Positions 20,827 through 35,790 of a DNA stretch of 44,676 bases are shown here, piece by piece; within the stretch, counting starts at the first letter, position 1, and every line of letters starts with the position of its first letter. The stretch comes from Nitrosomonadales bacterium (GTDB lineage Bacteria > Pseudomonadota > Gammaproteobacteria > Burkholderiales > Gallionellaceae). The stretch is taken from positions 1 through 44,676 of the forward strand of contig JAHFRC010000007.1 of assembly GCA_023259015.1 (NCBI GenBank). Reading direction: 5' to 3'. Below the pieces are notes generated by a model. The model was given only the letters and a program-made list of their open reading frames with translations, did no database searches and had not been told where the DNA came from. The position numbers and the translations under genes were made by a program.

Positions 20827-21615
20827 ATGGCACGTTTGCGTAAGTTAAGGCGCTATGAATACGAGAACCATGAACGCTGGTTGATCTCATACGCCGACTT
20901 CATAACCCTTTTGTTCGCATTCTTCGTGGTGATGTATGCCATTTCTTCGGTAAATGAGGGAAAGTACAAGGTATTCAGCGCATCGCTGATTACTGTATTC
21001 GGCGAAAATGGTAAGGCAAAATCGGAGTCCGTGGTGGCGCTCGGCGAGCAAGAGGCGTTGCTGAAGGCATTGCTGGACCGCAGGAACTACAGGCAGGCCG
21101 AAGAACGGCAACGCAAACAGCAGGAATTCATGCAGGTTGTCGCCAAAAATCTCAATCGGGTCATGACACCCTTGGTAAACAGCGGGCAGGTCAACATTGC
21201 CACTACCAAACGCGGCATCGAGCTGGAAATAAATGCCAGCGTACTATTCAGGGAGGGTGAGGCGGGACTGCAGGACGATGCGGCAAAAATACTTGCCGAG
21301 GTGGCCCAGGTGCTGGTGCAGAGCGACCAAGCCATCGAGGTTGAAGGGCATACCGACAGCACTCCCATCAATACTCCGCAGTACCCATCCAATTGGGAAT
21401 TGTCATCGGCACGCGCCTGCAGCGTAGTGCGCTTGTTCATTGAGCGGGGAGTGGCGGCAACGCGACTGACGGCCGTGGGCTCTGCCGACAACCTGCCGGT
21501 TGCATCCAACGACATACCGGATGGGCGCGCCCGCAACCGCAGGGTCACGGTCACTATCCTGGCACCTGGAGCCGAGCGCCTGGCGCAGCATCCGGCGCAG
21601 ATTCAAGGTGACTAG
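20827..21615 (+). CDS. motD: Flagellar motor stator protein, MotB family (MotD-type)
   Basis: 262 residues from ATG 20827. Single N-terminal membrane helix with the ion-binding Asp24 (LISYADFITLLFAFFVVMY). A linker and plug region rich in Gln and charged residues (about 70-110) follows. A C-terminal OmpA-like peptidoglycan-binding domain spans about 135-255 (VEGHTDSTPINT, NWELSSARACSVVRLF, RARNRRVTVTI). ATG 20815 is possible but a ribosome site would nearly touch it. It follows motC by one base. Last gene of the flagellar block; 193 bases separate it from the polysaccharide genes. Confidence 0.94.
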   Translation: MARLRKLRRYEYENHERWLISYADFITLLFAFFVVMYAISSVNEGKYKVFSASLITVFGENGKAKSESVVALGEQEALLKALLDRRNYRQAEERQRKQQEFMQVVAKNLNRVMTPLVNSGQVNIATTKRGIELEINASVLFREGEAGLQDDAAKILAEVAQVLVQSDQAIEVEGHTDSTPINTPQYPSNWELSSARACSVVRLFIERGVAATRLTAVGSADNLPVASNDIPDGRARNRRVTVTILAPGAERLAQHPAQIQGD

Positions 21616-21808: not shown

Positions 21809-23032
21809 ATGAACTGCCGCCATTGCCATCATCCGCTAAAACATATATTTCTCGATTTGGGATTTGCGCCGCCGTCCAATGCCTATCTCAGCGCTGCAGA
21901 GCTGAATAAACCGGAGCGTTACTACTCGCTCAAACTGTTTGTCTGCGAGTATTGTTGGCTGGTGCAAACCGAGGATTACGCCCAGGCAGACGAGTTGTTC
22001 GGCCACGACTACGCCTATTTCTCATCGGTCTCGCAAAGCTGGCTGGCGCATGCAGCACGCTATACAGCAATGATTACTCAGCGCCTCGGGTTGAATAAAG
22101 ACAGCCGCGTTATCGAGGTGGCGTCGAATGACGGTTATTTGCTGAAAAATTTTGTTGCGGCAGGCATTCCCTGTTTGGGCATAGAGCCTACCGCCAGCAC
22201 TGCCGCCGCAGCCGAGAAACTGGGTATTCCTGTTCTGCGTGAATTTTTCAGCCAGGTATTGGCGCAACGGCTCACGGCGGAAGGAAAACAGGCCGATCTC
22301 ATTCTGGGCAACAACGTGTATGCACATGTGCCGGATATCAATGATTTCACGGCCGGCCTTAAAACTGCGCTGAAACCCGGCGGCACGATAACGCTGGAAT
22401 TCCCACACCTGATGCGGTTGCTGGAGCAAACCCAGTTCGATACGGTATATCACGAACATTTTTCCTATTTCTCTCTTTACTCTGTCAACCGGATTTTCGT
22501 GCGGGCCGGCTTGCGCGTATTCGATATTGAGGAGTTGCCCACACACGGCGGCAGCCTGCGCGTCTACGGTTGCCATGCGGATGATATGCGTATCACCTCA
22601 CCCGCAGTTGAAACCATGTTGGCACAAGAATCTCGTAGCGGGATGCGCAGCATTGAAACCTACCAGGTATTTCAATCGCGCGTCGACCGGCTGAAGGACG
22701 ATTTTCTTTTGTTCCTGATCGAACAGAAGCGTGCAGGGAAACGTATTGCGGGCTATGGCGCTGCGGCCAAGGGCTGCACCCTGCTGAATTACGCCGGTGT
22801 CAAGACAGATCTGTTACCCTACGTGTGCGATGCCGCGCCTTCCAAGCAAGGCAAGTTTCTGCCTGGGTCGCATGTTCCTATCTTGCATCCGGATGTTTTG
22901 CGCGAACGCAAGCCGGATATCATTCTGATCCTGCCATGGAACATTCAGGCGGAAGTCATGCAGCAGATGACGCATATCCGCGGATGGGGCGGGAAATTTG
23001 CGGTGGCGATTCCATCCATCAAGGTGTGTTGA
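21809..23032 (+). CDS. NDP-hexose C-methyltransferase (TylCIII/NovU-type)
   Basis: 407 residues with the three-part layout of sugar C-methyltransferases. N-terminal zinc-binding segment with Cys3, Cys6, Cys46 and Cys49. SAM-binding domain with VIEVASNDGYLL at 101-112 and a YHEHFSYFSLYSV segment typical of the family. C-terminal domain with GYGAAAKGCTLLNY and PWNIQAEV. Enzymes of this group methylate carbon 3 of a 4-keto-6-deoxy sugar nucleotide. The following RmlC- and RmlD-like genes would handle the same substrate. The exact sugar is not readable. No rmlA or rmlB lies nearby. Confidence 0.85.
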   Translation: MNCRHCHHPLKHIFLDLGFAPPSNAYLSAAELNKPERYYSLKLFVCEYCWLVQTEDYAQADELFGHDYAYFSSVSQSWLAHAARYTAMITQRLGLNKDSRVIEVASNDGYLLKNFVAAGIPCLGIEPTASTAAAAEKLGIPVLREFFSQVLAQRLTAEGKQADLILGNNVYAHVPDINDFTAGLKTALKPGGTITLEFPHLMRLLEQTQFDTVYHEHFSYFSLYSVNRIFVRAGLRVFDIEELPTHGGSLRVYGCHADDMRITSPAVETMLAQESRSGMRSIETYQVFQSRVDRLKDDFLLFLIEQKRAGKRIAGYGAAAKGCTLLNYAGVKTDLLPYVCDAAPSKQGKFLPGSHVPILHPDVLRERKPDIILILPWNIQAEVMQQMTHIRGWGGKFAVAIPSIKVC

Positions 23033-23033
23033 A

Positions 23034-23573
23034 ATGCAGTTTATCCCTACCATTTTCGACGGCGCATATCTGATCGAACCAGAGCTGGTTATTGATGAGC
23101 GCGGCTTCTTTGCGCGCACTTGGTGCCAGAATGAATTTGCGTCCAAAGGGCTGAAGACCAATCCGGTGCAGTGCAGTATTTCCTACAATAAAACATGCGG
23201 CACGTTGCGCGGCATGCATTTCCAGCGCCAGCCGAATGCCGAGGCAAAGCTGGTGCGTTGCACCGCAGGCGCCATTTACGACGTGATAATAGACTTGCGC
23301 CAAGGGGCGCGGACTTTTCTGAAATGGGCTTCTTTCGAGTTAACAGCGCATAACCACAGGACGCTATACATTCCCGAAGGGTTTGCCCACGGATTCCAGA
23401 CACTGGCAGATGATACAGAGGTGCTCTACCAGATGTTCAATTTCTTTGCGCCGGAAAGCGCGGCCGGCTTCAGGTGGAATGACCCGGCTTTCCACATCAA
23501 ATGGCCGCTGGATATTTCCATCATGTCTGACAAGGATCGAGCCTATCCGGATTTCGACGGGCTCTTGCCTTGA
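23034..23573 (+). CDS. rfbC: dTDP-4-dehydro-6-deoxysugar 3,5-epimerase (RmlC family)
   Basis: 179 residues, one cupin fold. Family marks are DERGFFARTWCQNEF, the His-bearing GTLRGMHFQRQP, YDVIIDLRQGARTF and YIPEGFAHGFQTL. Converts a 4-keto-6-deoxyglucose nucleotide toward the L-series. It starts one base after the methyltransferase gene and its stop overlaps the next start. Because a C-methyltransferase precedes it, the substrate may be a 3-C-methyl sugar rather than the plain rhamnose precursor, as for antibiotic-pathway epimerases of this family. The symbol names the family, not a proven rhamnose role. Confidence 0.85.
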   Translation: MQFIPTIFDGAYLIEPELVIDERGFFARTWCQNEFASKGLKTNPVQCSISYNKTCGTLRGMHFQRQPNAEAKLVRCTAGAIYDVIIDLRQGARTFLKWASFELTAHNHRTLYIPEGFAHGFQTLADDTEVLYQMFNFFAPESAAGFRWNDPAFHIKWPLDISIMSDKDRAYPDFDGLLP

Positions 23574-24457
23574 ATATCCTGCTGATCGGAAAAACCGGGC
23601 AATTGGGCGGCAGCATCCTGGCCGAACAGGTGTCGCACCGGGTTTTTGCGCCAGGCCGCAGCGAACTTGACATCGAATCCAAAGAGTCGTGTGAACGTGC
23701 AATAGCCGGATTTCTCCCAGATGTCGTCATCAATACCGCTGCATTCCATGATGTTCCGCAATGTGAAGTGGAGCCGCATCGCGCATTTGCCGTGAATTGC
23801 CAGTCGGTTCGGGATTTGGCGCTTATGTGTAAAAGAGCCGGCGCCCTTTTGGTTACGTTCAGCACGGACTATGTGTTCGGTGGCGGACAAAATACGCCAT
23901 ATCGGGAAGAGGATTGCCCCAAGCCGCTGCAAATGTATGGCATCTCGCGGCTTGCCGGAGAAATGGCTGCCTTGGCTGCAGCACCGGAACATTGCGTGAT
24001 TATCCGGACTTGCGGCCTATATGGCTTGAGCGGCGCGGTTTCCAAGGGCGGAAATTTCGTGGACAAACGCATTGCTGATGCACAAACAAACAGCGTGCTG
24101 GAAATGGGCTGCGACCAGATTGTTTCGCCTACCTATAGCGGCGACCTTGCACAAGCCGTGCTGAAACTCATCGAACACCCGCAACTTACTCCCGGAATCT
24201 ACCATCTGGTGAATGAGGGTGCATGCACATGGTTCGAGTTCACCAAGGCGATTTATGAACTTATGGGTATCAATGCAAGCGTTCACCCGGTTGACCGCAG
24301 AGGAGTGAGCGGAGAAATGCGGCGTCCGCTTTATTCAGTGCTTGCCAATACCAGGGCGCGGGCACTGGGGATTATGTTGCCGCACTGGCGCAATGGCCTG
24401 GAGAGGTATCTGCGGCAGAAGTACAATTCACCCATGAAAATAAGCCAAAAAAGTTAA
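23570..24457 (+). CDS. rfbD: dTDP-4-dehydro-6-deoxysugar reductase (RmlD family)
   Basis: 295 residues; NAD(P)H-dependent 4-keto reduction, last step of 6-deoxysugar nucleotide synthesis. The NAD-binding motif is LIGKTGQLGGSI at the N-terminus, then FSTDYVFGG and the catalytic-type YGISRLAGE (Tyr and Lys/Arg region near 124-132). The start is TTG 23570 inside the preceding stop (TTGA), because the Rossmann motif begins immediately and no ATG exists before it. In many RmlD proteins the catalytic pair reads YxxxK; here the fourth residue after Tyr is Arg (YGISR), which is worth noting. Confidence 0.87.
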   Translation: MNILLIGKTGQLGGSILAEQVSHRVFAPGRSELDIESKESCERAIAGFLPDVVINTAAFHDVPQCEVEPHRAFAVNCQSVRDLALMCKRAGALLVTFSTDYVFGGGQNTPYREEDCPKPLQMYGISRLAGEMAALAAAPEHCVIIRTCGLYGLSGAVSKGGNFVDKRIADAQTNSVLEMGCDQIVSPTYSGDLAQAVLKLIEHPQLTPGIYHLVNEGACTWFEFTKAIYELMGINASVHPVDRRGVSGEMRRPLYSVLANTRARALGIMLPHWRNGLERYLRQKYNSPMKISQKS

Positions 24458-24572
24458 CATGCGCATAATGCGCGCTTGCTGCCGCGCAAGAATGCTTTTC
24501 TGCGCACGCCGCAAGTTAAATGTATTCAGGCAACCGTTGTAAACAAACGACCATGAAGGCAGGCGGAAATAC

Positions 24573-25403
24573 ATGAGTGCAACACAACAGGTGTTGATAA
24601 TTGAGGCAGGCCGCTCGGAGCGGCATTACTGGCGAGACCTGTGGAATTACCGCGAACTGTTTTTCTTTTTGGCTTGGCGCGACATCCTGGTTCGCTACAA
24701 GCAAACTGCAATTGGAACGATGTGGGCATTGGGGCGCCCATTGCTCATCATGCTGGTATTTACCCTGGTTTTCAGCAAACTGGCAAAACTGCCTTCCGAG
24801 GGCGTCCCCTACCCGATACTGGTGTTTGCGGCGCTGCTGCCCTGGCAATTTTTTGCCAGTGCATTTAGCGGCGCCGGCGATAGCCTGGTCAGCAATTCCG
24901 GAATGATTTCGAAGGTTTACTTCCCGCGTTTGGTTGTTCCTGCCGGTGCGGTGATCGTCAGCTTCGTGGATTTCCTTATTTCGGCGGCCATTCTGGTTGG
25001 ATTGATGGTCTGGTATGGGTTTGCGCCAAGCTTGCGCATGCTTGCCCTGCCCTTGTTTGTTTTTGTGGTCTTTGCCGCTGCCATGGGTGCAGGGCTATGG
25101 GTTGCGGCACTCAACGTCAAATACCGTGATTTCCGCATCATCGTCCCATTCATGGTGCAATTCGGGTTATACATTTCACCGGTCGGGTTCAGCACCGCCA
25201 TCGTTCCTGAGCAATGGCGCCTGCTCTATTCCTTAAACCCGATGGTGGGCGTGATAGATGGTTTCCGCTGGGCCATTTTGGGCGGCAATACACAGCTTTA
25301 CTGGCCGGGGTTCCTGCTCTCCCTGTTTCTGGTAATGGTGATACTGATTACGGGAATAGTTTATTTCCGTAAAACGGAAAAAACCTTTGCGGATGTAATC
25401 TGA
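24573..25403 (+). CDS. wzm: Polysaccharide ABC exporter permease (Wzm family)
   Basis: 276 residues, ABC-2 type permease with about six membrane segments. The amphipathic start YWRDLWNYRELFFFLAWRDI and VRYKQTAIGTMWALGRPLL are hallmarks of O-antigen or teichoic-acid exporters. It would move a lipid-linked polysaccharide across the inner membrane with the ATPase encoded next. Its stop overlaps the next start (TGATG). A 115-base gap upstream contains the inverted repeat GCGCATAATGCGC near 24462, so a separate promoter is possible. Confidence 0.93.
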   Translation: MSATQQVLIIEAGRSERHYWRDLWNYRELFFFLAWRDILVRYKQTAIGTMWALGRPLLIMLVFTLVFSKLAKLPSEGVPYPILVFAALLPWQFFASAFSGAGDSLVSNSGMISKVYFPRLVVPAGAVIVSFVDFLISAAILVGLMVWYGFAPSLRMLALPLFVFVVFAAAMGAGLWVAALNVKYRDFRIIVPFMVQFGLYISPVGFSTAIVPEQWRLLYSLNPMVGVIDGFRWAILGGNTQLYWPGFLLSLFLVMVILITGIVYFRKTEKTFADVI

Positions 25404-26677
25404 TGCCATCTGTTATCTCTGCCGAAAATCTCTCGAAGAAATACATCATCGGCCACCAGAAGCGGGAACGCTATACTACTTTGCGCGACGTTTTGGCAAA
25501 TGGCGCCAAGCGTTTCACCAACAAACTGTTCCATCCTTTTGCCGCACGGGCAAACGGCCACACGCTCGAAGAATTCTGGGCTCTCAGGGATGTGGGCTTC
25601 GATATTCAGCAGGGGGATCGGGTGGGGATCATCGGGCGTAATGGCGCGGGTAAATCTACCCTGTTGAAAATCCTTTCGCGCATTACCGAACCCACTTCCG
25701 GGCAAGCAAGAATCTGCGGCCGCGTGGCCAGCCTGCTTGAGGTCGGCACAGGTTTTCATCCGGAACTCAGCGGGCGAGAAAACATTTATCTTAATGGCGC
25801 CATCCTCGGCATGAGCAAAGCCGAGATCATGAGGAAGTTTGATGAAATCGTGGCCTTTGCGGAAGTGGAAAGATTTCTCGACACCCCTGTCAAGCATTAT
25901 TCGAGCGGCATGTATGTGCGACTGGCGTTTGCTGTGGCCGCCAATCTGGAGCCGGAGATATTGATTGTTGACGAGGTGCTGGCAGTAGGCGATGCCCAGT
26001 TCCAGAAAAAATGCCTCAGCAAAATGGAGAATGCAGGCAAGGAAGGGCGTACTGTGATACTTGTCAGTCATAGCATGCCAACTGTTACATCGCTTTGTGG
26101 CAGGGCAATCCTGCTGGAATCTGGTCGGGTTGTGAAGGACGGCCCGACTTCTGAAGTGGTAATGCACTATTACACCAGTGGGCAATCTTCTCCGGCCAGC
26201 GCCGATTTTTCAAATAAATATGTGGGTGACGGTAAGGTGCGCTTGCTGAAAGGAGGCATTAAAAATGGCAAGGGTGCGGTAGCGCTAGAAGTCGGCATAA
26301 CCGAGCCATTAACTGTGGAAATGATCTTTGAAGTTCTACATGATGATTGTGTTTCACTTGTTCCGAATTTCCATTTTTATACAGCGGGAGGGGAGTGTGC
26401 TTTTGTCTCGCACGACACACAGAAACACCCCTGCCAAAAAGGTAAATTTGTTTCCCAGTGTTATATACCGGCTAACTTTTTGAATGAGGGTGGTTATTTT
26501 GTTGGATTGGCAGTATCTTCATTCGATGCAGGAATTGAAGTACATTTTTATGAGAAGAACTGCCTGTCATTTAATGTGGTAGATTCACACAACGGGATGG
26601 TTGGCAGGCCAAATCATTCTCACCCTATTCCCGGTGTTGTCCGGCCACTTTTGGATTGGAAGTTACAAATACTTTGA
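25403..26677 (+). CDS. wzt: Polysaccharide ABC exporter ATPase with C-terminal glycan-binding domain (Wzt family)
   Basis: 424 residues. ATPase domain about 1-250 with Walker A GRNGAGKST (78-86), signature YSSGMYVRLA (166-175) and Walker B ILIVDE (186-191). The remaining 170 residues resemble the Wzt C-terminal beta-sandwich that recognises the non-reducing end of a finished O-antigen (PNFHFYTAGGECAFVSHD, IPANFLNEGGYFVGLAV). That domain implies that the exported chain carries a terminal mark, often a methyl group. The methyltransferase encoded next could supply it. Base composition becomes AT-richer in the 3' part. Confidence 0.93.
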   Translation: MPSVISAENLSKKYIIGHQKRERYTTLRDVLANGAKRFTNKLFHPFAARANGHTLEEFWALRDVGFDIQQGDRVGIIGRNGAGKSTLLKILSRITEPTSGQARICGRVASLLEVGTGFHPELSGRENIYLNGAILGMSKAEIMRKFDEIVAFAEVERFLDTPVKHYSSGMYVRLAFAVAANLEPEILIVDEVLAVGDAQFQKKCLSKMENAGKEGRTVILVSHSMPTVTSLCGRAILLESGRVVKDGPTSEVVMHYYTSGQSSPASADFSNKYVGDGKVRLLKGGIKNGKGAVALEVGITEPLTVEMIFEVLHDDCVSLVPNFHFYTAGGECAFVSHDTQKHPCQKGKFVSQCYIPANFLNEGGYFVGLAVSSFDAGIEVHFYEKNCLSFNVVDSHNGMVGRPNHSHPIPGVVRPLLDWKLQIL

Positions 26678-26912
26678 GGGCAAGTTTTTTCCGCAGGCTA
26701 GAAACACCCGACGGCGAAAAAACGCATTAATAGCCAAACCCTGTGTGTTGCCAATGGAAGTGGGCGGTAAACACCAAGATGGTCGCCGCTTCGCGGCTAC
26801 GCCACCGCTGTTCCAACTGCGTCCTTCGGGCTCGGTGTTGTGCCGGTGGTGCCGCTCAACTGCGCTCCGTTCGGCCCCAAAGAAGCCAGCAATTCTAAAA
26901 TAGACTTAAGTA
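26678..26912. other. Intergenic GC-rich stretch between AT-rich genes
   Basis: 235 bases, no supported gene. Positions about 26760-26880 are much richer in G and C than both flanks and include the small hairpin GCCGCTTCGCGGC. The tract could be decayed coding DNA or a dispersed repeat fragment; I cannot tell which. No terminal inverted repeats were seen. Confidence 0.35.
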
Positions 26913-27875
26913 ATGATTAAGACGCTACAACAACTCTATCAGGAACATCAAGGCAAGGTATCAGATAAATGGTCGATATACCTTGCCGAATATGATCAAG
27001 CCCTTACATTTTATCGGAATCAAAGCATTCGCCTACTGGAAATCGGCATCCAAAATGGGGGCTCGCTCGAAATCTGGTCAAAGTATTTTCCTAACGCCGT
27101 GAAATTGATTGGGTGCGATAGAAATTCAGGCTGTCGTCGTCTGACGTATGATAATTCAATAATCACTGTGGTTGTCGCTGACGCCAATCTTGATGAAACT
27201 GAGAAAATCATTCTCGATCATGCGCAAACCTATACCCTAATTATAGATGATGGATCGCACCGGTCTTCCGATATAGTCAAATCCTTTGCCCGCTATTTTC
27301 CGCATCTGGAAGATGGAGGGCTATTCGTTGTAGAAGATTTGCACTGCAGTTACTGGCAGGAATTCGAGGGCGGTATATTTGACCCATACTCTTCAGTCGC
27401 TTTTTTCAAGCGGCTGGCGGATATTATTAATCATGAGCATTGGGGTGTAGCCAAGTCACGCAAGGAATTGCTTTCCGGATTTGCTAGAAAATATGGCGTT
27501 TCATTTAACGAAGAGGTTCTGGCGCACGTCCATTCCGTTAAGTTCATTAATTCGATGTGCATTATTAGCAAGGCCGCAATGGATCAAAATCAGCTCGGTC
27601 ATAGGGTCATCGCGGGAACGCACACCCAGGTTGAAGATGTTTCTAATGAGTTTTATGAATTTTGCGTCTCCCCAGACCAAACCCCCAACCCTTTTGGTGC
27701 CGGCTGCATGCAGCGTGAAGAAGACATTCTCAAGCTTCTTAGCGAGTTGGCAGAGCAAACCAGGAAGCTTCAAGAAATGGATCGGCAAATTCGGCAATTG
27801 CTTAGTTCCAGAAGCTGGAGAATTACCAAGCCATTGCGCTGGGCAAGAAGTTTCTTTGCGAACCTGAAAAAATGA
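26913..27875 (+). CDS. SAM-dependent methyltransferase with C-terminal coiled coil
   Basis: 320 residues. The N-terminal class I methyltransferase domain shows RLLEIGIQNGGSLEIW (motif I, about 39-54), IGCDRN, TLIIDDGSHRSSD and LEDGGLFVVEDLH. This pattern is common in polysaccharide and cephalosporin-hydroxylase-like methyltransferases. A heptad-like tail (about 270-300, EEDILKLLSELAEQTRKLQE) is followed by LLSSRSWRITKPLRW, a short end motif often attached to glycosyltransferases of O-antigen loci. Base composition is AT-richer than the flagellar genes, suggesting acquisition by transfer. A role in capping the glycan recognised by Wzt is inference only. Confidence 0.8.
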   Translation: MIKTLQQLYQEHQGKVSDKWSIYLAEYDQALTFYRNQSIRLLEIGIQNGGSLEIWSKYFPNAVKLIGCDRNSGCRRLTYDNSIITVVVADANLDETEKIILDHAQTYTLIIDDGSHRSSDIVKSFARYFPHLEDGGLFVVEDLHCSYWQEFEGGIFDPYSSVAFFKRLADIINHEHWGVAKSRKELLSGFARKYGVSFNEEVLAHVHSVKFINSMCIISKAAMDQNQLGHRVIAGTHTQVEDVSNEFYEFCVSPDQTPNPFGAGCMQREEDILKLLSELAEQTRKLQEMDRQIRQLLSSRSWRITKPLRWARSFFANLKK

Positions 27876-27972
27876 CAGGGTGCATCTCCTTAAAGGAAAT
27901 GTTGATGCGTAACTTGATGTTTTCGAACAGGCCGGCACATAGTCATATGCGGGACAGGCCGTATAGGAATTC

Positions 27973-28875
27973 ATGAGTGAACCGATGAAGGAGCTTTGTG
28001 TTGTCCATTTGGTGCGAGCTCAAAATGGTATTGAGCCTTTCCGGAGGTTTCTTGAGTCTTATCGGGTGAATTCTGGCGCGATCGAGCACGACTTGTTGGT
28101 CGTATTCAAGGGATTCGCACGGCAACAAGACACCGAGGAGTACCTTGGAATGCTCACTCCGTTTTGCCATATCTCATTTTATGTTCCAGATAAGGGTTTT
28201 GACATTACGGCTTATTTTGCTGTGGTTATGCACTATTCGGAGCATTACCGGTATTTTTGCTTTCTGAATTCATACAGCGTGATTCTGGATCATGAGTGGC
28301 TGAAAAAACTACACAAAAACATAACCAGGCAGGACGTTGGCCTGGTAGGGGCAAGCGGCTCGTGGGGTAGCCGCTTGCCCCTGAATAAATACTTTTCGCT
28401 GCCGCCTCTTGCATCACCGAAAAAGCGCAGGCCTCTTTACAAAAAGTTATTGCTGCCTTGGCTTATGTTCCCATTCAGGGTGGCTCATAATATTCATCAT
28501 CGAATATATTTCGTTTCATTTCCCAATTACCACATACGAACTAATGCTTTCATGATTTCGGGCAAGCTAATGAAAACACTTAACTGCCAGCCCATTAAAA
28601 CCAAAAGGGATGCCTACCGGTTTGAGAGCGGAAGGAAAGGGCTTACAAAGCAGGTTCTGGATATGGGTAAAGAAATTTTCGTTGTCGGAAAAGACGGCAG
28701 TGGCTATGAAATGAAAGAATGGAGCGAAAGTAAGACATTCTGGAAATATGAGCAGGAAAACTTGCTGGTCGCAGATAATCAAACTTGTGATTACCAAGAT
28801 GGGTCACCAGAAAGAAGACGCTATCTAACCGCTTTTGCGTGGGGCGATGATACCGCAGAAAACGTCAAAAAATAA
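27973..28875 (+). CDS. Putative polysaccharide-cluster protein, possibly glycosyltransferase-like
   Basis: 300 residues, not confidently recognised. It begins with ELCVVHLVRAQNGIEPFRRF and has DLLVVFKGF, then YVPDKGFDITAYFAVVMHY and RYFCFLNSYSVILDHEWLKK. The alternation of short beta strands with an Asn-Ser pair before the middle resembles GT-A-type donor-binding halves in O-antigen clusters, but no clear DxD is present. No signal peptide or membrane helix is obvious. It is AT-rich like its upstream neighbour, lies 97 bases after it and is probably co-transcribed with it. Confidence 0.65.
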   Translation: MSEPMKELCVVHLVRAQNGIEPFRRFLESYRVNSGAIEHDLLVVFKGFARQQDTEEYLGMLTPFCHISFYVPDKGFDITAYFAVVMHYSEHYRYFCFLNSYSVILDHEWLKKLHKNITRQDVGLVGASGSWGSRLPLNKYFSLPPLASPKKRRPLYKKLLLPWLMFPFRVAHNIHHRIYFVSFPNYHIRTNAFMISGKLMKTLNCQPIKTKRDAYRFESGRKGLTKQVLDMGKEIFVVGKDGSGYEMKEWSESKTFWKYEQENLLVADNQTCDYQDGSPERRRYLTAFAWGDDTAENVKK

Positions 28876-29542: not shown

Positions 29543-31723
29543 ATGGCGAGCATAAAGCCGGGAAAAGGCGACCCATGCTCCTGCGGTAGCGGGAAGACAT
29601 TTGAAAAATGCTGCATGGAATGGTACGAATCCGCCAAGCCTAAAGTTGCCGGGAAGAAAGCGGCGCCCACCGCAGCCGAATGCAACCAGCTTGAAGCCTT
29701 GTTTAGCGCCGGACGCCTTGCAGAGCTGGAGGGCCGTGCGCGCTTGCTGCTTGAGAAGTATCCGGAATCCGGATTTGTCTGGAATTTATTGGGCGCATCC
29801 CTTCAGATGCAGGGCAAGGATGGCTTGGCTGCATTGCAGAATGCCACGAAATTTTTGCCTAATGATGCCGATGCGCACAGCAATCTGGGCAACGTCCTCG
29901 GCGATCTGGGTCGGCTGGACGAGGCCGAGGCCTGTTACCGGCGGGCGTTGCGGATCGATCCGCACAACGCCAATGTGCTCAGCAACCTGGGCATCACCCT
30001 CGGCGACTTGGGTCGGCTGGACGAGGCCGAGGCCTGTTACCGGCGGGCACTGAAAATTAAACCCGCCATCGCTGAGGTGCATATCAACCTGGGCAAAATA
30101 CTCGGTGACTCGGGTCGTCTTGCTGAGGCCGAGGCCTGTTACCGGCGCGCGCTAAAAATCAATTCCGGCATTGCCGAGGCGCATGGCAATTTGGGCAATA
30201 TATTCCGGAAACTGGGCCGGCTGGACGAAGCCGAGGCATGTTACCGGCAGGCGGTCAGGATCAAACCGAATTACGCCGAGGCACATCACAATCTGGGCAA
30301 CATCCTCAGGGATATGGAGCGGCTGGACGAGGCTGAAGCATGCTGTCGACGGGCTCTGGAGATCAAACCCAGTTACGTTGAGGCATATCACAATCTGGGT
30401 AATGTCCTGCAAAAGTTAGGGCAACTCGATAAAGCAATAGCATGCTATCGTCGCACCTTGGAGATTAAGCCCGATTACGTCGAGGCGTATAATAACCTGC
30501 TTTTCGGCAGCAATTATCTGCCAAACCAGTCACCGGCGCAGTTGCTGGCCGAGGCGCGGCGCTATGGCGAACTGGTGGCGCGGCAAGCACGCCCATACAA
30601 GGCGTGGAACTGCGTTCCAGACCCGGCCCGCTGCTTGCGCGTGGGCATAGTGTCCGGCGATCTGCGCGCGCACCCGGTTGGCTATTTTTTGAAAAGTGCG
30701 CTGGCGGCGCTGTCTGCACACGCCGCAGGCCGACTGGAATTATTCGCCTACCACAATAATATTCGCGCAGATGCGGTAAGCGAGCGGATCAAGGCCTGCT
30801 GCCGTGACTGGCATACTGTGGCGGCGCTTTCCGACGAAAACCTTGCCCGGCTGATACACGACGACGGCATCGACATCCTGCTCGACCTCGCCGGCCATAC
30901 TGCCCATAACCGGCTGTCTGTTTTCGCCTGGAAACCCGCCCCCATACAGGCTGCATGGCTCGGCTATTTAGCTACTACCGGGGTGGCAGCCATGGATTAC
31001 CTTATTGCCGATGCATGGACGCTGCCGGAAACCGAGGAGGCGCATTTCACCGAAAAAATATGGCGCCTGCCGGAAACCTACCTGTGCTTCACCCCGCCGG
31101 ATGTGGAAGAGAAAGTCGCCCCGCTTCCCGCGCTGGCTAATGGTTACGTCACCTTTGGTAGCTTCAACAACCTGACCAAGATGAATGATGACGTAGTGGC
31201 GCTATGGGCGCGCGTGCTTGCGTCGATACCGAACAGCCAGCTGTTCCTCAAAACCAAGCAATTTGAAGAAGCGTCGGTGCGGCAAAGCACCGTGGAGCGC
31301 TTCGCCGTGCACGGCATCGGCGCCGACCGGCTGGTTCTGAAGGAACCCGTCCCGCGCGCGGAATATCTGGCGCCCTACCGGCAGGTGGACATCGCCCTCG
31401 ATCCGTTCCCTTATCCGGGCATCACTACCAGCGTCGAGAGCTTGTGGATGGGTGTGCCGGTGCTGACTCTGACAGGAGAAAGCTTCATGTCGCGCCAAGG
31501 AATCGGCCTGCTGATGAACGCCGGCCTGTCCGAATGGATCGCAATTGATGCCGACGACTATGTGGCCAAGGCTATAGCGCACGCGGGCGACTTGCAACGG
31601 TTGGCGGCCTTACACAACGGGCTGCGGCAACAGGTTGTGGCGTCACCGATCTTTGACGCCCTGCGCTTTGCCAAAAATTTCGAAGCCGCCTTGCGCGGCA
31701 TGTGGCAAAAATGGTGCGGGTAA
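29543..31723 (+). CDS. SEC-C/TPR/GT41 glycosyltransferase, copy 1
   Basis: 726 residues. A SEC-C zinc motif lies at the N-terminus (DPCSCGSGKTFEKCC, Cys12, 14, 23, 24). A spacer follows, then six full 34-residue TPRs plus a half repeat (about 109-325). The GT41 domain, the O-GlcNAc transferase type, covers about 350-720. Motifs matching human OGT include LIHDDGIDILLDLAGHTAHN, KPAPIQAAWLGYLATTG, SFNNLTKMNDDVVALWARVL, DIALDPFPYPGITTS and ASPIFDALRFAKNFEAAL. GT41 enzymes glycosylate Ser/Thr (or Asn for HMW1C types) of proteins. Target unknown; proximity to flagellar genes makes flagellin a candidate. Ten bases before its paralogue. Confidence 0.9.
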   Translation: MASIKPGKGDPCSCGSGKTFEKCCMEWYESAKPKVAGKKAAPTAAECNQLEALFSAGRLAELEGRARLLLEKYPESGFVWNLLGASLQMQGKDGLAALQNATKFLPNDADAHSNLGNVLGDLGRLDEAEACYRRALRIDPHNANVLSNLGITLGDLGRLDEAEACYRRALKIKPAIAEVHINLGKILGDSGRLAEAEACYRRALKINSGIAEAHGNLGNIFRKLGRLDEAEACYRQAVRIKPNYAEAHHNLGNILRDMERLDEAEACCRRALEIKPSYVEAYHNLGNVLQKLGQLDKAIACYRRTLEIKPDYVEAYNNLLFGSNYLPNQSPAQLLAEARRYGELVARQARPYKAWNCVPDPARCLRVGIVSGDLRAHPVGYFLKSALAALSAHAAGRLELFAYHNNIRADAVSERIKACCRDWHTVAALSDENLARLIHDDGIDILLDLAGHTAHNRLSVFAWKPAPIQAAWLGYLATTGVAAMDYLIADAWTLPETEEAHFTEKIWRLPETYLCFTPPDVEEKVAPLPALANGYVTFGSFNNLTKMNDDVVALWARVLASIPNSQLFLKTKQFEEASVRQSTVERFAVHGIGADRLVLKEPVPRAEYLAPYRQVDIALDPFPYPGITTSVESLWMGVPVLTLTGESFMSRQGIGLLMNAGLSEWIAIDADDYVAKAIAHAGDLQRLAALHNGLRQQVVASPIFDALRFAKNFEAALRGMWQKWCG
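29907..30048 (+). repeat. Near-identical DNA repeat between adjacent TPR units
   Basis: A 40-base tract at 29907-29946 recurs without change at 30009-30048, exactly 102 bases (34 codons) later. A third, diverged copy begins near 30110. This is internal to the first GT41 gene and suggests recent TPR duplication or gene conversion between repeats. Confidence 0.85.
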
Positions 31724-31733
31724 TAACATTGAG

Positions 31734-33812
31734 ATGGCGGGCATGAAACCGGAAAAAAACGACCCATGTCCCTGCGGCAGCGGCAAAACATATGAAAAAT
31801 GCTGCCAGGAATGGTACCAGTCCACCAAGCCAAAATTTGCCGAAAAAAAAACTGCACCCACCGCAGCAGAGTGTAGCCAGCTTGAAGCTTTATTGAAGAC
31901 CGGGCATTCGGCGGAGCTGGAAAGACAGACCCGCTTATTGCTTGAGCAATATCCAGAGTCCGGATATGTTTTGAATTTGTTGGGTGTATCTCTTCAGATG
32001 CAAGGTAAAGACAATCTATTTGCCTTTGAGAAAGCGGCGAAGTTCTTGCCCAATGATGTCAATGTACTTAACAATTTAGGCAACGCCCTAAGCGACCTGA
32101 ACCGGCTGGACGAGGCCGAGGCTATTTACCGGCGGGTGCTGCATAATAACCCGCTTAACGCTATGGCACTCAGCAACATGGGAGCCGCACTCAGGTGTAT
32201 GGGCAGGCTAAACGAAGCCGAAGCCATCTGTCGGCGAGCGTTACAGATCAAGCACGATTTCGTTGAGGCGCATAATAATCTTGGCAATATCCTTGAAGAT
32301 CAGGGTCGCATATCCGAAGCTGAAGCAAGTTACAGAAGGGCGCTGGAAATCAGGCCAAATCAAGTTGACGCACATAATAATCTGGGCAACCTGTTTTTGA
32401 GATTGGGCCAGTTTTTCAAAGCAGAAGCATGCTATCGGCGGGCGCTGGAGATCAAACCGGATTGTATCGAGGCGTATGGCAATCTGGGCAATGTCCTGCA
32501 AAGTCTCGGAAAATTCGATGAAGCGGTGTTGAGCTATCAACGTGCGCTGGAGATCAAACCCGATTTTGCTGATGCACTCAGCAACCTGCTCTTTATCTAC
32601 AACCTTTTGCCTGACCAACCCCCGGCAAAGTTGCTGGCTGAAGCGCGGCGTTATGGTGAACTGGTGGCGAGGCAAGCACGTCCATACAAGTCATGGAATG
32701 GTGTGCCAGATATTGCGCGGTGCTTGCGCGTAGGATTGGTTTCCGGCGACCTGCGCGAACACGCGGTTGGTTTTTTTCTTGAGGGTGCGCTGTCTGCGCA
32801 CGCCGCAGGCCGGCTGGAATTTACTGCCTATTCCAATCACCATTGCATTGATGCAGTAACCGGGCGGATCAAGAAAAGCTGTCGTGGCTGGCATTCCGTA
32901 GCAGCGCTTTCAGATGAAAATCTTGCCCGGCTGATTCATGACGACGGCATTGACATCCTGCTTGACCTCTCCGGCCATACCAGCCATGACCGGTTGCCGG
33001 TATTCGCATGGAAGCCCGCACCCATTCAGGTCGCTTGGCTGGGTTATTTTGCCACCACCGGCGTGGCGGCTATGGATTACCTCATCGCCGACCCGTGGAC
33101 GCTGCCGGAAACGGAAGGAATTTATTTCACCGAAAAAATCTGGAGACTGCCTGAAACCCGGCTTTGCTTCACTCCTCCCGACACAGATGTGGCAGTTGCA
33201 CCGCTTCCCGCGCTGACTAACGGTTACGTCACTTTTGGTTGTTTCAACAACCTGGCCAAGATGAACGATAACGTAGTGGCGCTATGGGCGCGTGTGCTTG
33301 AATCCGTGCCGGGCAGCCGCCTGCTCCTGAAAGCCAAACAGCTCAATGAAATTGTGGTGCGGCAAAGTGTCGTCGAGCGGTTTGCGGCCCACGGCATCGG
33401 CGCCGACCGGATACTGCTGGAGGGCTCAGAGGCAAGGGCGAAATACTTTGCCGCCTACCATCGCGTGGATATTGCCCTCGATCCATTTCCCTTTACGGGC
33501 GGCACCACGAGTGCCGAAGGTTTGTGGATGGGTGTGCCGGTGCTGACCCTGGAGGGGGAACGTTTCCTGTCGCGCCAGGGAGTTGGCCTGCTGATGAACG
33601 CCGGCCTGCCCGAGTGGGTTGCAGCCGATGCCGACGATTATGTGACCAAGGCAATATCACACACGGGCGACTTGCAACGGCTGGCGACCCTGCGTAGCGG
33701 GCTGCGGCAACAGGTACTGGCATCACCGATCTTCGATGCCCCGCGCTTTGCCCGTAATCTTGAAGCCGCATTGCGCGGCATGTGGGCGCAGTGGTGCGAC
33801 CAACAACAATGA
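31734..33812 (+). CDS. SEC-C/TPR/GT41 glycosyltransferase, copy 2
   Basis: 692 residues from ATG 31734, which starts ten bases after copy 1; earlier in-frame starts lie inside copy 1. Same layout: SEC-C motif DPCPCGSGKTYEKCCQEW, five full TPRs plus a half repeat, and the GT41 domain (IHDDGIDILLDLSGHTSHD, KPAPIQVAWLGYFATTG, CFNNLAKMNDNVVALWARVL, DIALDPFPFTGGTTSAEGL). It is 34 residues shorter than copy 1, the length of one TPR. The GT domain is highly alike, while the TPRs differ more. This suggests a shared reaction with different protein targets. Tandem duplication is evident. Confidence 0.9.
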   Translation: MAGMKPEKNDPCPCGSGKTYEKCCQEWYQSTKPKFAEKKTAPTAAECSQLEALLKTGHSAELERQTRLLLEQYPESGYVLNLLGVSLQMQGKDNLFAFEKAAKFLPNDVNVLNNLGNALSDLNRLDEAEAIYRRVLHNNPLNAMALSNMGAALRCMGRLNEAEAICRRALQIKHDFVEAHNNLGNILEDQGRISEAEASYRRALEIRPNQVDAHNNLGNLFLRLGQFFKAEACYRRALEIKPDCIEAYGNLGNVLQSLGKFDEAVLSYQRALEIKPDFADALSNLLFIYNLLPDQPPAKLLAEARRYGELVARQARPYKSWNGVPDIARCLRVGLVSGDLREHAVGFFLEGALSAHAAGRLEFTAYSNHHCIDAVTGRIKKSCRGWHSVAALSDENLARLIHDDGIDILLDLSGHTSHDRLPVFAWKPAPIQVAWLGYFATTGVAAMDYLIADPWTLPETEGIYFTEKIWRLPETRLCFTPPDTDVAVAPLPALTNGYVTFGCFNNLAKMNDNVVALWARVLESVPGSRLLLKAKQLNEIVVRQSVVERFAAHGIGADRILLEGSEARAKYFAAYHRVDIALDPFPFTGGTTSAEGLWMGVPVLTLEGERFLSRQGVGLLMNAGLPEWVAADADDYVTKAISHTGDLQRLATLRSGLRQQVLASPIFDAPRFARNLEAALRGMWAQWCDQQQ

Positions 33813-33858: not shown

Positions 33859-35790
33859 TTACTTTGCTGCCTCATCGCTTAATGTGCGGTCAGCACAATT
33901 AGCTTCAGCACCTGCCGCTTCTTTTAAGCGCCTGGTTTTCTTGTATACCGTTGACAGCAGACAATATGCCCGCAATTCGGGTGGCGTTTGTTCCAATGCG
34001 GCGCGTAGCGGGGCTTCCGCTTTGGCAACATACCCGCTGCCCATCAAGGCCAGGCCCAAATTATAGAAGGCTTGTCCGCGCATGGGTTCTGGGAGGCGCT
34101 GTGAATCAACAGCGGCGCGCAGATGGACTATTGCATTTATATATCTCCTGTCTTCCGCCATCCATAGCCCGGCGTTGTAGCGCACCGAAGCATTGTCGGG
34201 AAATTGCTTGGCCAAAGAATCCCATTGTGCCGCAAAAATATCCCTGCAACGCCCCCACATGCTGCTTATAGGGGGATTCCATTTGGCTTGAACAGGCGGC
34301 TTATTCAGGGCAAGCCCCAGTTTATTGAGCAGGGCCACTACTTCCCCGGGTCCGCCGGTAGCATTGGCTACCGCATAGTCTGCATCTATCAGCCTAACCG
34401 TGATATCCTGGAGCTCAGGGGTGGTTATACTATCGGCTGTATCCCTTGCTTCGCGAAGCAATCCTTGCGGCAACTGGACTGAAAATATTTTATAGATGGC
34501 GGGCGCGTAGTATCCGGGAAAGGCGCGGAAGTCGCTATCTACAAGCACCTCATGGCTAAACCAGTCACGTGGCCGTTCCATATTCTGGAAACCCCATGAC
34601 AAAGCGATGGTGAGCAACAGAATGGCGCGCGGCACGGGTTTCAAACGCCAGGACAGGACGGTCAGCAGCATTACGGCCGGCCACGCCGCAAGAGCTAGCC
34701 ATCGGTCTGAAACAAGCGAGGGTGCAGCAAAAGGAATCAGTTGAATGTAGGGCAGGCAGAGCAGAAAAAAACTGGCCACTGCAAAACTTTCCATGGAACG
34801 TTTGCGCAAAAACATTATTGTGCCGGCCACAGCCGCTGCCAGAGTTGCCACTCCCAGCACGATCATGGCTGGAAGGTATGTATCCTCAAGCACCGGGTAA
34901 AAAAAATGGCGGCTTTCCGGACTGACGGAAAGGCGGGCCAGCCACCCAAGCACAGCCAGAGTTCGTGAGACTGCCTCAATTCCAAAATAATAGCTCAACC
35001 TTTCCGTGCTGCCCCATTTGCTGGCAATAAAAACCAGGTTCAGTAAAACGGCCAGAAGCAATATGGCGAAGAGCCACAGCAAATGGGAGTGGCGCCGGTA
35101 CGTTGCAGGGATGTCGAGCCAGAACGCCAGCCAGAGCAGGGCAATGACTGGTGCTACAGTGACATAGGATGTTTTCGAGAGCATCACTGCCAAAAAAGCC
35201 ACCAGCGTTGCGGCGGCATAGGGTGCTGAAAGCCCGAGCTCCCGCTTTGCGCGCAGGGCAAACCAGAGCGCAAGCATTGAAAACAGGCTGGCAAGCAAGT
35301 ATTTGCGCCCGCTGATCCACACTACAGGTTCGATCATGATGGGATGCAGCGCAAATAATGCGGTGGTTGCCGCCGCAGCCCAAGGTGCGCTTGCAATATC
35401 CGCCGGGTGGAAGTAGCGCCACAGGCCTGATGTCACGGCGTATAGCAGCGGCAGGCAGAGCAGATACAGGATGATGTTGTGCAACCGGAACGCAGCAGGA
35501 TTCAACCCGAACAATGTCATGTCGAGCCAGTAGGAAAGATCACGCAACGGAAGGAACTCAGAAAAAACATTGTATGGCTTGGTAAAGAGACGCCATAGCT
35601 CGGTCAGGTGCAGCCCCGCCAGTCTGGTATTCTTGGTGATGTAGTATCCATCATCAGAAATAAACGGGTAGTTGAGCGCCTGCATGTAGGCGGCAACTGC
35701 TGCCGCAACTGCGGCCAATACCAGCGCTATGGGTGCAAATCGCCGCATGCGCACATGCGAGGAAGACAGATTCTTTTCTTCAGGCTTCAT
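33859..35790 (-). CDS. TMTC-like GT-C membrane glycosyltransferase with C-terminal TPRs
   Basis: 643 residues. About ten to twelve membrane segments fill residues 18-430. The first outer loop has the GT-C acidic pair in NYPFISDDGYYITKN. The FALHPIMIEPVVWISGRKYL segment matches the conserved FxxHPxxxExVxxxxGRxxL pattern of TMTC O-mannosyltransferases and their bacterial relatives. The C-terminal 150 residues hold TPR-like helices (ASVRYNAGLWMAEDRRYINA, GQAFYNLGLALMGSGYVAKA). These enzymes use lipid-linked sugars on the periplasmic side. It converges on the GT41 pair. Substrate and donor unknown; function inferred from family only. Confidence 0.75.
   Translation of the reverse strand: MKPEEKNLSSSHVRMRRFAPIALVLAAVAAAVAAYMQALNYPFISDDGYYITKNTRLAGLHLTELWRLFTKPYNVFSEFLPLRDLSYWLDMTLFGLNPAAFRLHNIILYLLCLPLLYAVTSGLWRYFHPADIASAPWAAAATTALFALHPIMIEPVVWISGRKYLLASLFSMLALWFALRAKRELGLSAPYAAATLVAFLAVMLSKTSYVTVAPVIALLWLAFWLDIPATYRRHSHLLWLFAILLLAVLLNLVFIASKWGSTERLSYYFGIEAVSRTLAVLGWLARLSVSPESRHFFYPVLEDTYLPAMIVLGVATLAAAVAGTIMFLRKRSMESFAVASFFLLCLPYIQLIPFAAPSLVSDRWLALAAWPAVMLLTVLSWRLKPVPRAILLLTIALSWGFQNMERPRDWFSHEVLVDSDFRAFPGYYAPAIYKIFSVQLPQGLLREARDTADSITTPELQDITVRLIDADYAVANATGGPGEVVALLNKLGLALNKPPVQAKWNPPISSMWGRCRDIFAAQWDSLAKQFPDNASVRYNAGLWMAEDRRYINAIVHLRAAVDSQRLPEPMRGQAFYNLGLALMGSGYVAKAEAPLRAALEQTPPELRAYCLLSTVYKKTRRLKEAAGAEANCADRTLSDEAAK

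Follow-up and report, generated by a model that had tools for sequence, protein, structure and literature searches.

The DNA analysed here, a stretch of 44,676 nucleotides hereafter called the window, corresponds to contig C70 of a Nitrosomonadales genome of 1.79 Mb (94 contigs, 73% complete). It harbours two tandem genes, A and B, each coding for a protein with a SEC-C motif, a TPR array and a GT41 domain (Table 1). This composition, which an earlier sequence-only reading of the window had proposed, was borne out by the open reading frames, by Pfam for the TPR and GT41 parts and by a SEC-C search of the genome, with scores above the cut-off for both proteins; Pfam also listed SEC-C for B. The Glyco_transf_41 signature of Pfam gave E-values of 4.9e-49 for A and 9.4e-44 for B (167.4 and 150.0 bits, respectively, for a cut-off of 25). 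We placed the start of B at the ATG codon at 31743, as the alternative TTG at 31635 is disfavoured by its overlap with A. The two GT domains share 76% identity over 393 residues, short of the near identity that had been claimed for them. The TPR parts do differ, as had also been stated, by ordinary substitutions and by one repeat fewer in B. It is possible that the two enzymes divide targets between them.

Table 1. Genes A and B, their domains and the neighbouring genes in the window.
Feature	Position	Strand	Basis or remark
Upstream sugar/export genes	21809..28875	+	Family matches, others by inspection
rmlD-type gene	23570-24457	+	Upstream of A
Wzt-type ATPase	25403-26677	+	Upstream of A
Gene A: SEC-C + TPR + GT41 (SPINDLY-like), 726 aa	29543..31723	+	ORF, Pfam, structure model
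Shared front end of A, 87.6% DNA identity to front of C19 methyltransferase gene	29552..30090	+	
SEC-C motif of A (CSCGSGKTFEKCC)	29570..29617	+	PF02810, 29.7 bits, cut-off 20.4
TPR array of A, six full repeats	29867..30499	+	Pfam, A/B alignment
GT41 domain of A, two matched stretches	30593..31678	+	PF13844
Gene B: SEC-C + TPR + GT41, 689 aa	31743..33812	+	ORF, Pfam; 19 nt past A stop
SEC-C motif of B (CPCGSGKTYEKCC)	31758..31808	+	PF02810, 37.9 bits, above cut-off
TPR array of B, five repeats	32061..32567	+	A/B comparison
GT41 domain of B, two matched stretches	32682..33761	+	PF13844
Multi-spanning membrane protein, weak C-terminal TPR	33859..35790	-	Downstream of B

The description of the pair as lying beside a flagellar locus is a loose one: flagellar and chemotaxis ORFs, named by inspection, are present in the window, but they stop at position 21615, approximately 8 kb before A. 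The intervening region contains sugar, ABC-exporter and methyltransferase-like ORFs, an ABC permease and the methyltransferase-like ORFs being recognized by inspection. The neighbours of A and B are polysaccharide-type genes, and we counted this against the explanation that we favour below. The membrane protein encoded downstream of B has two homologues on contig C7 of the same genome (L019 3912-5864 and 9160-11091), with mutual identities of 61-62%. These TPR membrane proteins, TMTC-like by inspection, recur beside SEC-C+TPR genes, and family searches returned no family name for those of the window and of C7. The C7 stretch (L019 3912-13269) is flanked by two SEC-C genes and harbours the two TPR membrane proteins together with GT2-type and sulfotransferase-like ORFs (by inspection); it resembles the A/B locus.

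An AlphaFold2 model of A, with 22 relatives in the alignment, has a pLDDT of 91.1, with lower values for the SEC-C knuckle (65-80) and for linker residues 32-38 (below 50). It shows a GT-B fold and a TPR array that match those of SPINDLY and OGT. The best matches of A in sequence and fold are SPINDLY structures, followed by human OGT and Thermobaculum OGT, with 462.7 bits for SPINDLY versus 396.9 bits for the best OGT. The catalytic Lys is conserved, as K546 of A aligns with K665 of SPINDLY, and this site is kept in both A and B. The preference of SPINDLY for GDP-fucose is reported to involve K689, A731 and Y744, where human OGT has L866, R904 and C917 (PMC10027727). The corresponding residues are Lys, Pro and Tyr in A and Lys, Ala and Phe in B, and the site of R904 is therefore devoid of Arg in both (Pro and Ala, respectively). 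Both also have Glu at the E752 site of SPINDLY. Some fucose contacts are not kept, with Pro (A) or Ala (B) at the S496 site and Ile (A) or Gly (B) at the T747 site, and consequently the sugar may not be fucose. Of the 22 enzymes in the alignment, 8 have Lys at the K689 site and 14 have another residue, so donors probably differ among enzymes.

SPINDLY, an Arabidopsis protein O-fucosyltransferase of the GT41 family, thus shares with A and B the TPR-GT41 organization, Lys at the K689 and K665 sites and Glu at the E752 site. It differs from them in lacking SEC-C in its matched part and in the S496 and T747 positions, and the donor and acceptor of A and B are predicted. Human OGT, XcOGT and TtOGT belong to the same superfamily and have the same fold, but they have other donor-pocket residues and lower scores, and OGTs are devoid of SEC-C. 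The term 'OGT-type' used in the sequence-only reading is accordingly correct at the superfamily level, but the donor pocket resembles that of SPINDLY and not that of OGT. A plain OGT identity was rejected on the grounds of the higher SPINDLY score and of pocket residues unlike those of human OGT. Judging from its residues, the nucleotide pocket of A and B would fit a GDP-sugar better than UDP-GlcNAc. We infer that the two enzymes likely modify proteins and that their donor is likely a GDP-linked sugar; that this sugar is fucose is not certain. The source genome codes for a GDP-mannose dehydratase (600.8 bits, cut-off 415).

All four ligands of the SEC-C motif (CxC...C[C/H]) are present in A, in B and in 61 of 61 front-end matches of relatives (see below), which supports the earlier proposal that SEC-C is a genuine additional module. 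The conservation of its cysteines among close homologues, on which the sequence-only reading had staked its proposal, is seen wherever SEC-C occurs, but the eight other GT domains of the A/B clade are without SEC-C. Iron is reportedly a metal ligand of SEC-C, and iron dependence is an attractive idea in a family of iron oxidisers. The motif with its four ligands is also found in YecA/AscA, in YchJ and in the C-terminal metal-binding domain of SecA. It is C-terminal in SecA, including the SecA-type copy of the source genome, and in YecA, whereas in A and B it is N-terminal, precedes the TPR array and has lost basic residues. In 7 of the 10 front-end copies of the source genome, including A and B, a KTFEK-like sequence is found where the SecA of that genome has KKYKQ, and the charge of the SEC-C core is +2 in A and +1 in B versus a mean of +4.2 in 55 copies from elsewhere. 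The basic KKYK pattern is kept in most copies of relatives.

The metal-binding domain of SecA is reported to bind SecB and ribosomes, and its basic surface has been proposed to mediate ribosome binding (PMC6620043); such a surface is not found in A or B. Other SEC-C proteins have been listed in a review as possible accessories of Sec (PMC8076867). SecB was not found in the source genome at its 73% completeness, but it is present in 13 of the 15 genomes searched; G014 (99% complete) has a SEC-C GT41 gene, and SecB was not found in it. Given that the basic residues are kept in most relatives but lost in most copies of the source genome, docking to the ribosome or to SecB appears possible for the front-end family and less so for A and B. 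A loose precedent might be the mycobacterial protein pair Rv0613c/MSMEG_1285, which combines SEC-C and TPR in one protein and is reported to bind and display a surface protein (PMC6032435). It is actinobacterial, however, and the available portion of that paper describes no transferase back end for it.

The source genome contains 12 SEC-C matches, the highest number among 200 genomes of the order (next, 9 and 7). One falls in a 903-aa frame with a SecA-type motif and another is C-terminal in a protein of 256 residues. The remaining ten are located at the N terminus and followed by TPR, and their proteins have back ends of at least seven kinds. These comprise three GT41, one GT9-like, one PrmA/PRMT-like and two other methyltransferase domains, one B12-binding radical SAM domain, one SGNH-like domain (motif only, by inspection) and one back end cut by a contig end. 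The radical SAM fusion is a protein of 1032 residues (L026 2456-5554). The first 539 coding bases of the C19 methyltransferase gene are 92.0% identical to those of the SGNH-like gene and 87.6% identical to those of A, and in both comparisons similarity stops there. A and B, although sisters by their GT domains, share 73% identity in their front residues. The GT domain of the third SEC-C GT41, on C7, is only 28.5% identical to that of A, compared with 43.7% for a SEC-C-less GT41 on C94. The fronts of the three GT41 proteins, of both non-PRMT methyltransferases and of the SGNH-like protein form one clade in the front tree (support 100). Exchange of fronts between genes is the simplest reading of these sequences, gene conversion being an equivalent one. 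Three congeneric genomes (96, 85 and 99% complete) gave no front-end match at E 1e-10 and no GT41 match at 1e-40, indicating that the trait is patchy.

To survey relatives, we built a profile, A1, from eight fronts of the source genome and used it to search 150 genomes of the family at E<=1e-13. At least 95 of them yielded matches, many of which are TPR-only fronts. Among the matches listed, we took all those outside the source genome that start at profile position 5 or earlier, which gave 61 proteins leaning towards the fronts from which the profile was made. We then worked with a set of 65 proteins, namely the 10 copies of the source genome, 4 from named contigs and 51 from fetched stretches. 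It includes 50 of the 61 matches; two duplicate named contigs, and nine were missed by the motif/TPR expressions, although their ligands were still checked. The back ends, whose types are backed by Pfam searches of representatives, are GT41 (29), sulfotransferase (16), C19-type methyltransferase (8), GT9-like (2), C64-type methyltransferase (2), SGNH-like (1), PRMT-like (1) and radical SAM (1), with one masked and four too short.

Between genomes, the median front identity is 50.7% for pairs with the same back end and 50.4% for pairs with different ones (545 and 1163 pairs, respectively), and front similarity is therefore independent of the back end. A tree of 60 fronts with eight back-end labels requires 19 changes, for a minimum of 7 and a mean of 27.7 after shuffling, and none of 200 shuffles was as low. 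Swapping is thus not free, with back ends partly inherited with the fronts and partly swapped. In a tree of GT41 domains restricted to proteins with readable N termini, 34 of 58 have SEC-C, as identified with a motif expression that covers the C-H ending of the L217 copy. This label requires 12 gains or losses, at least 11 of them forced by starred branches (shuffled mean 18.8). A and B are sisters (100) in a ten-member clade, and the eight remaining members have no SEC-C, indicating that the motif is dispensable for that enzyme type. Both trees were built by a quick method and have long branches.

Beyond the family, SEC-C and TPR are encoded together with GT41, Sulfotransfer_3 and methyltransferase back ends on contigs titled Thiobacillus, Acetobacteraceae and Proteobacteria bacterium. 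In a profile search covering 398 genomes from the phylum, with the best ten candidates of each taken, no match from profile position 5 or earlier was obtained outside the source genome. We also inspected ten genomes of the order that were selected by their 5 to 9 SEC-C matches and thus provide no frequency; five of them, from five other families, have SEC-C before TPR. The ten C-terminal pieces from these families correspond to GT41 (5), Sulfotransfer_3 (2), GT9 (2) and TPR only (1); two of the proteins have an uncertain start codon, with SEC-C deep within the frame. We therefore rejected the idea of a front restricted to a single family. In G661, two SEC-C+TPR pairs are found in tandem, and in another family of the order a 186-aa frame has two SEC-C motifs (G635:C35:65516-65968). 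We found no description of SEC-C + TPR + glycosyltransferase fusions in the open-access literature, and a term search of the main text of a Gallionellaceae pangenome paper for 'SEC-C' or 'TPR' was negative (PMC10734462). SEC-C/TPR/GT41 is a new combination of known parts.

The neighbourhoods of SEC-C-TPR-GT41 fusions, a survey of which the sequence-only reading had suggested, were examined in relatives. In G162, G088 and G138, the genes for flagellin, FliD and FliS, one more ORF and a YcgR-like gene are followed by the SEC-C GT41 gene, whose end overlaps a sugar-aminotransferase gene by 4 nt in G162 and G088; FliS scored above its NCBIfam cut-off and flagellin above its Pfam cut-off, and FliD, YcgR and the aminotransferase fell below theirs. 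Flagellin is 16 kb away from SEC-C GT41 in G085 and 22 to 30 kb away in G135. Altogether, 4 of the 10 SEC-C GT41 genes counted (including three from the source genome) lie within 20 kb of flagellin, with P 8e-6 for uniform placement, a rough value because the genomes are related. This count leaves out four genes on contigs under 6 kb and six in genomes whose flagellin match did not reach 1e-30, none of the six being close to such a match; adding the latter six gives 4 of 16 (P 7e-5). In G155, a GT41 gene without matched SEC-C is located 6 kb from flagellin, and the linkage may thus be a trait of GT41 rather than of SEC-C. The K689 site of flagellin-linked GT41 enzymes is occupied by Gly in G162 and G085 and by Gln in G138.

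G135 (L326/L327, G135:C1:312900-325200) harbours one SEC-C GT41 gene adjoining cysC and, consecutively, manC, gmd, an fcl-type gene (446 bits, cut-off 500), a second SEC-C GT41 gene and a SEC-C sulfotransferase gene. Putative makers of GDP-fucose and PAPS would thus be encoded beside enzymes that could use them. The GT41 enzymes beside manC-gmd-fcl have Val at the Y744 site, which argues against a simple reading.

We propose, with an even chance of being right in our estimation, that A and B are SPINDLY-like protein glycosyltransferases in which the TPR superhelix selects the acceptor and SEC-C serves as a docking tag on a swappable front. In the cytoplasm, they would move a sugar from a nucleotide donor, predicted to be of the GDP type, to protein side chains. 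The N-terminal SEC-C knuckle, on its flexible linker, would lie outside the catalyst, and SEC-C with the first repeats would form a front end moved by recombination between glycosyl-, sulfo- and methyltransferases. Of this proposal, the domain anatomy, the homologies, the conserved ligands and the sharing and swapping of fronts are seen in the sequences. The repeated transfer of this front onto different modifying enzymes suggests a common docking handle. We conjecture that one partner, with the ribosome, SecB or another chaperone as candidates, may be served by different modifying heads.

Several other explanations were weighed. SEC-C might be a passenger or a structural knuckle (a TPR cap, a dimer contact or a metal sensor) spread by easy recombination of 5' ends and not by selection for docking. 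This is somewhat unlikely in our opinion. In its favour, the motif is gained and lost within GT41 clades, its cysteines persist in the seven copies of the source genome that have lost basic residues, and gene conversion of repeat-rich 5' ends would yield the same front identities, but the four ligands are invariant in the matches of relatives when the rest of the front is approximately 50% identical, and SEC-C recurs before TPR with the same back-end types in the five other families. It is unlikely that A and B make a surface polysaccharide or O-antigen instead of protein glycans, with the TPR array organizing other enzymes. Although rmlD, the Wzt-type ATPase and the ABC permease are among their neighbours, and sulfotransferase, GT9 and FkbM families such as those found as back ends are frequent in glycan loci, TPR superhelices bind polypeptides, and the GT41 members described in PMC9715652, PMC10027727 and PMC7591256 act on proteins.

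The two readings that link the pair to particular clients both appear quite doubtful. The first, in which SEC-C would bring the enzymes to SecB, SecA clients or ribosomes for the glycosylation of Sec-exported proteins, is in line with the binding properties of the SecA domain, with the mycobacterial pair and with the KKYK pattern of most relatives. It is at odds with the loss of this pattern in A and B and with the failure to find SecB in the source genome and G014. Moreover, flagellin is not a Sec substrate, and Sec export therefore fits badly where a SEC-C GT41 gene adjoins flagellin. The second reading, in which A and B would glycosylate flagellin as an FlmG-like pair, draws on the flagellar genes of the window and on the flagellin loci of G162, G088, G138 and, at 16 kb, G085. 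However, no flagellin was matched in the window, and those of the source genome are on contigs C85 and C90. A and B belong to a GT clade other than that of the G162, G088 and G085 genes, no flagellin, fliD or fliS match was found in the 15-20 kb around seven relatives of their clade (G148 in two pieces), and SEC-C GT41 genes occur in the 99%-complete G065, G103 and G075 genomes, which gave no Flagellin_N match. As a target of A and B, flagellin is thus unsupported by co-location in the source genome and by the neighbourhoods of clade relatives. FlmG of Caulobacter, a TPR glycosyltransferase reported to bind flagellin through its TPR part, resembles the SEC-C GT41 proteins in its two-part organization and, for some relatives, in the flagellin link; it differs from A and B in using pseudaminic acid, in having no SEC-C named in the available portion of the paper and in that A and B are unlinked to flagellin (PMC7591256).

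The wider finding, beyond A and B, is that modifying enzymes share a SEC-C+TPR front end that recombines. To our knowledge, target finding in bacterial cytoplasmic O-glycosylation is poorly understood, and the recurrence of a metal knuckle on transferases that are chemically unrelated suggests a recruitment step common to them. The swaps constitute natural experiments, with one head found with and without SEC-C and one front with different heads. With its manC-gmd-fcl, cysC, SEC-C GT41 and sulfotransferase genes, the G135 locus makes donor and acceptor directly testable, and it could be a bacterial equivalent of protein O-fucosylation in plants. A bolder version of the docking idea, which we hold to be improbable, is that SEC-C+TPR is a plug-in handle by which unfolded proteins at the ribosome or a chaperone would meet interchangeable heads. 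Surface proteins, flagellin included, would in this way be fucosylated, sulfated or methylated before export, with recombination within the genome exchanging the heads.

Two further observations concern GT41 genes. Some genomes harbour arrays of GT41 matches, up to 12 in one genome, and open frames of 1400-1800 aa with two GT41 matches each (G109:C1:1165607-1168765, G091:C2:280046-283201 and G129:C183). On contig C72 of the source genome, a SEC-C-less GT41 gene is found near an ORF resembling MshL, the MSHA pilus secretin, by inspection (L021 1508 and 5833), and its target may be a pilin.
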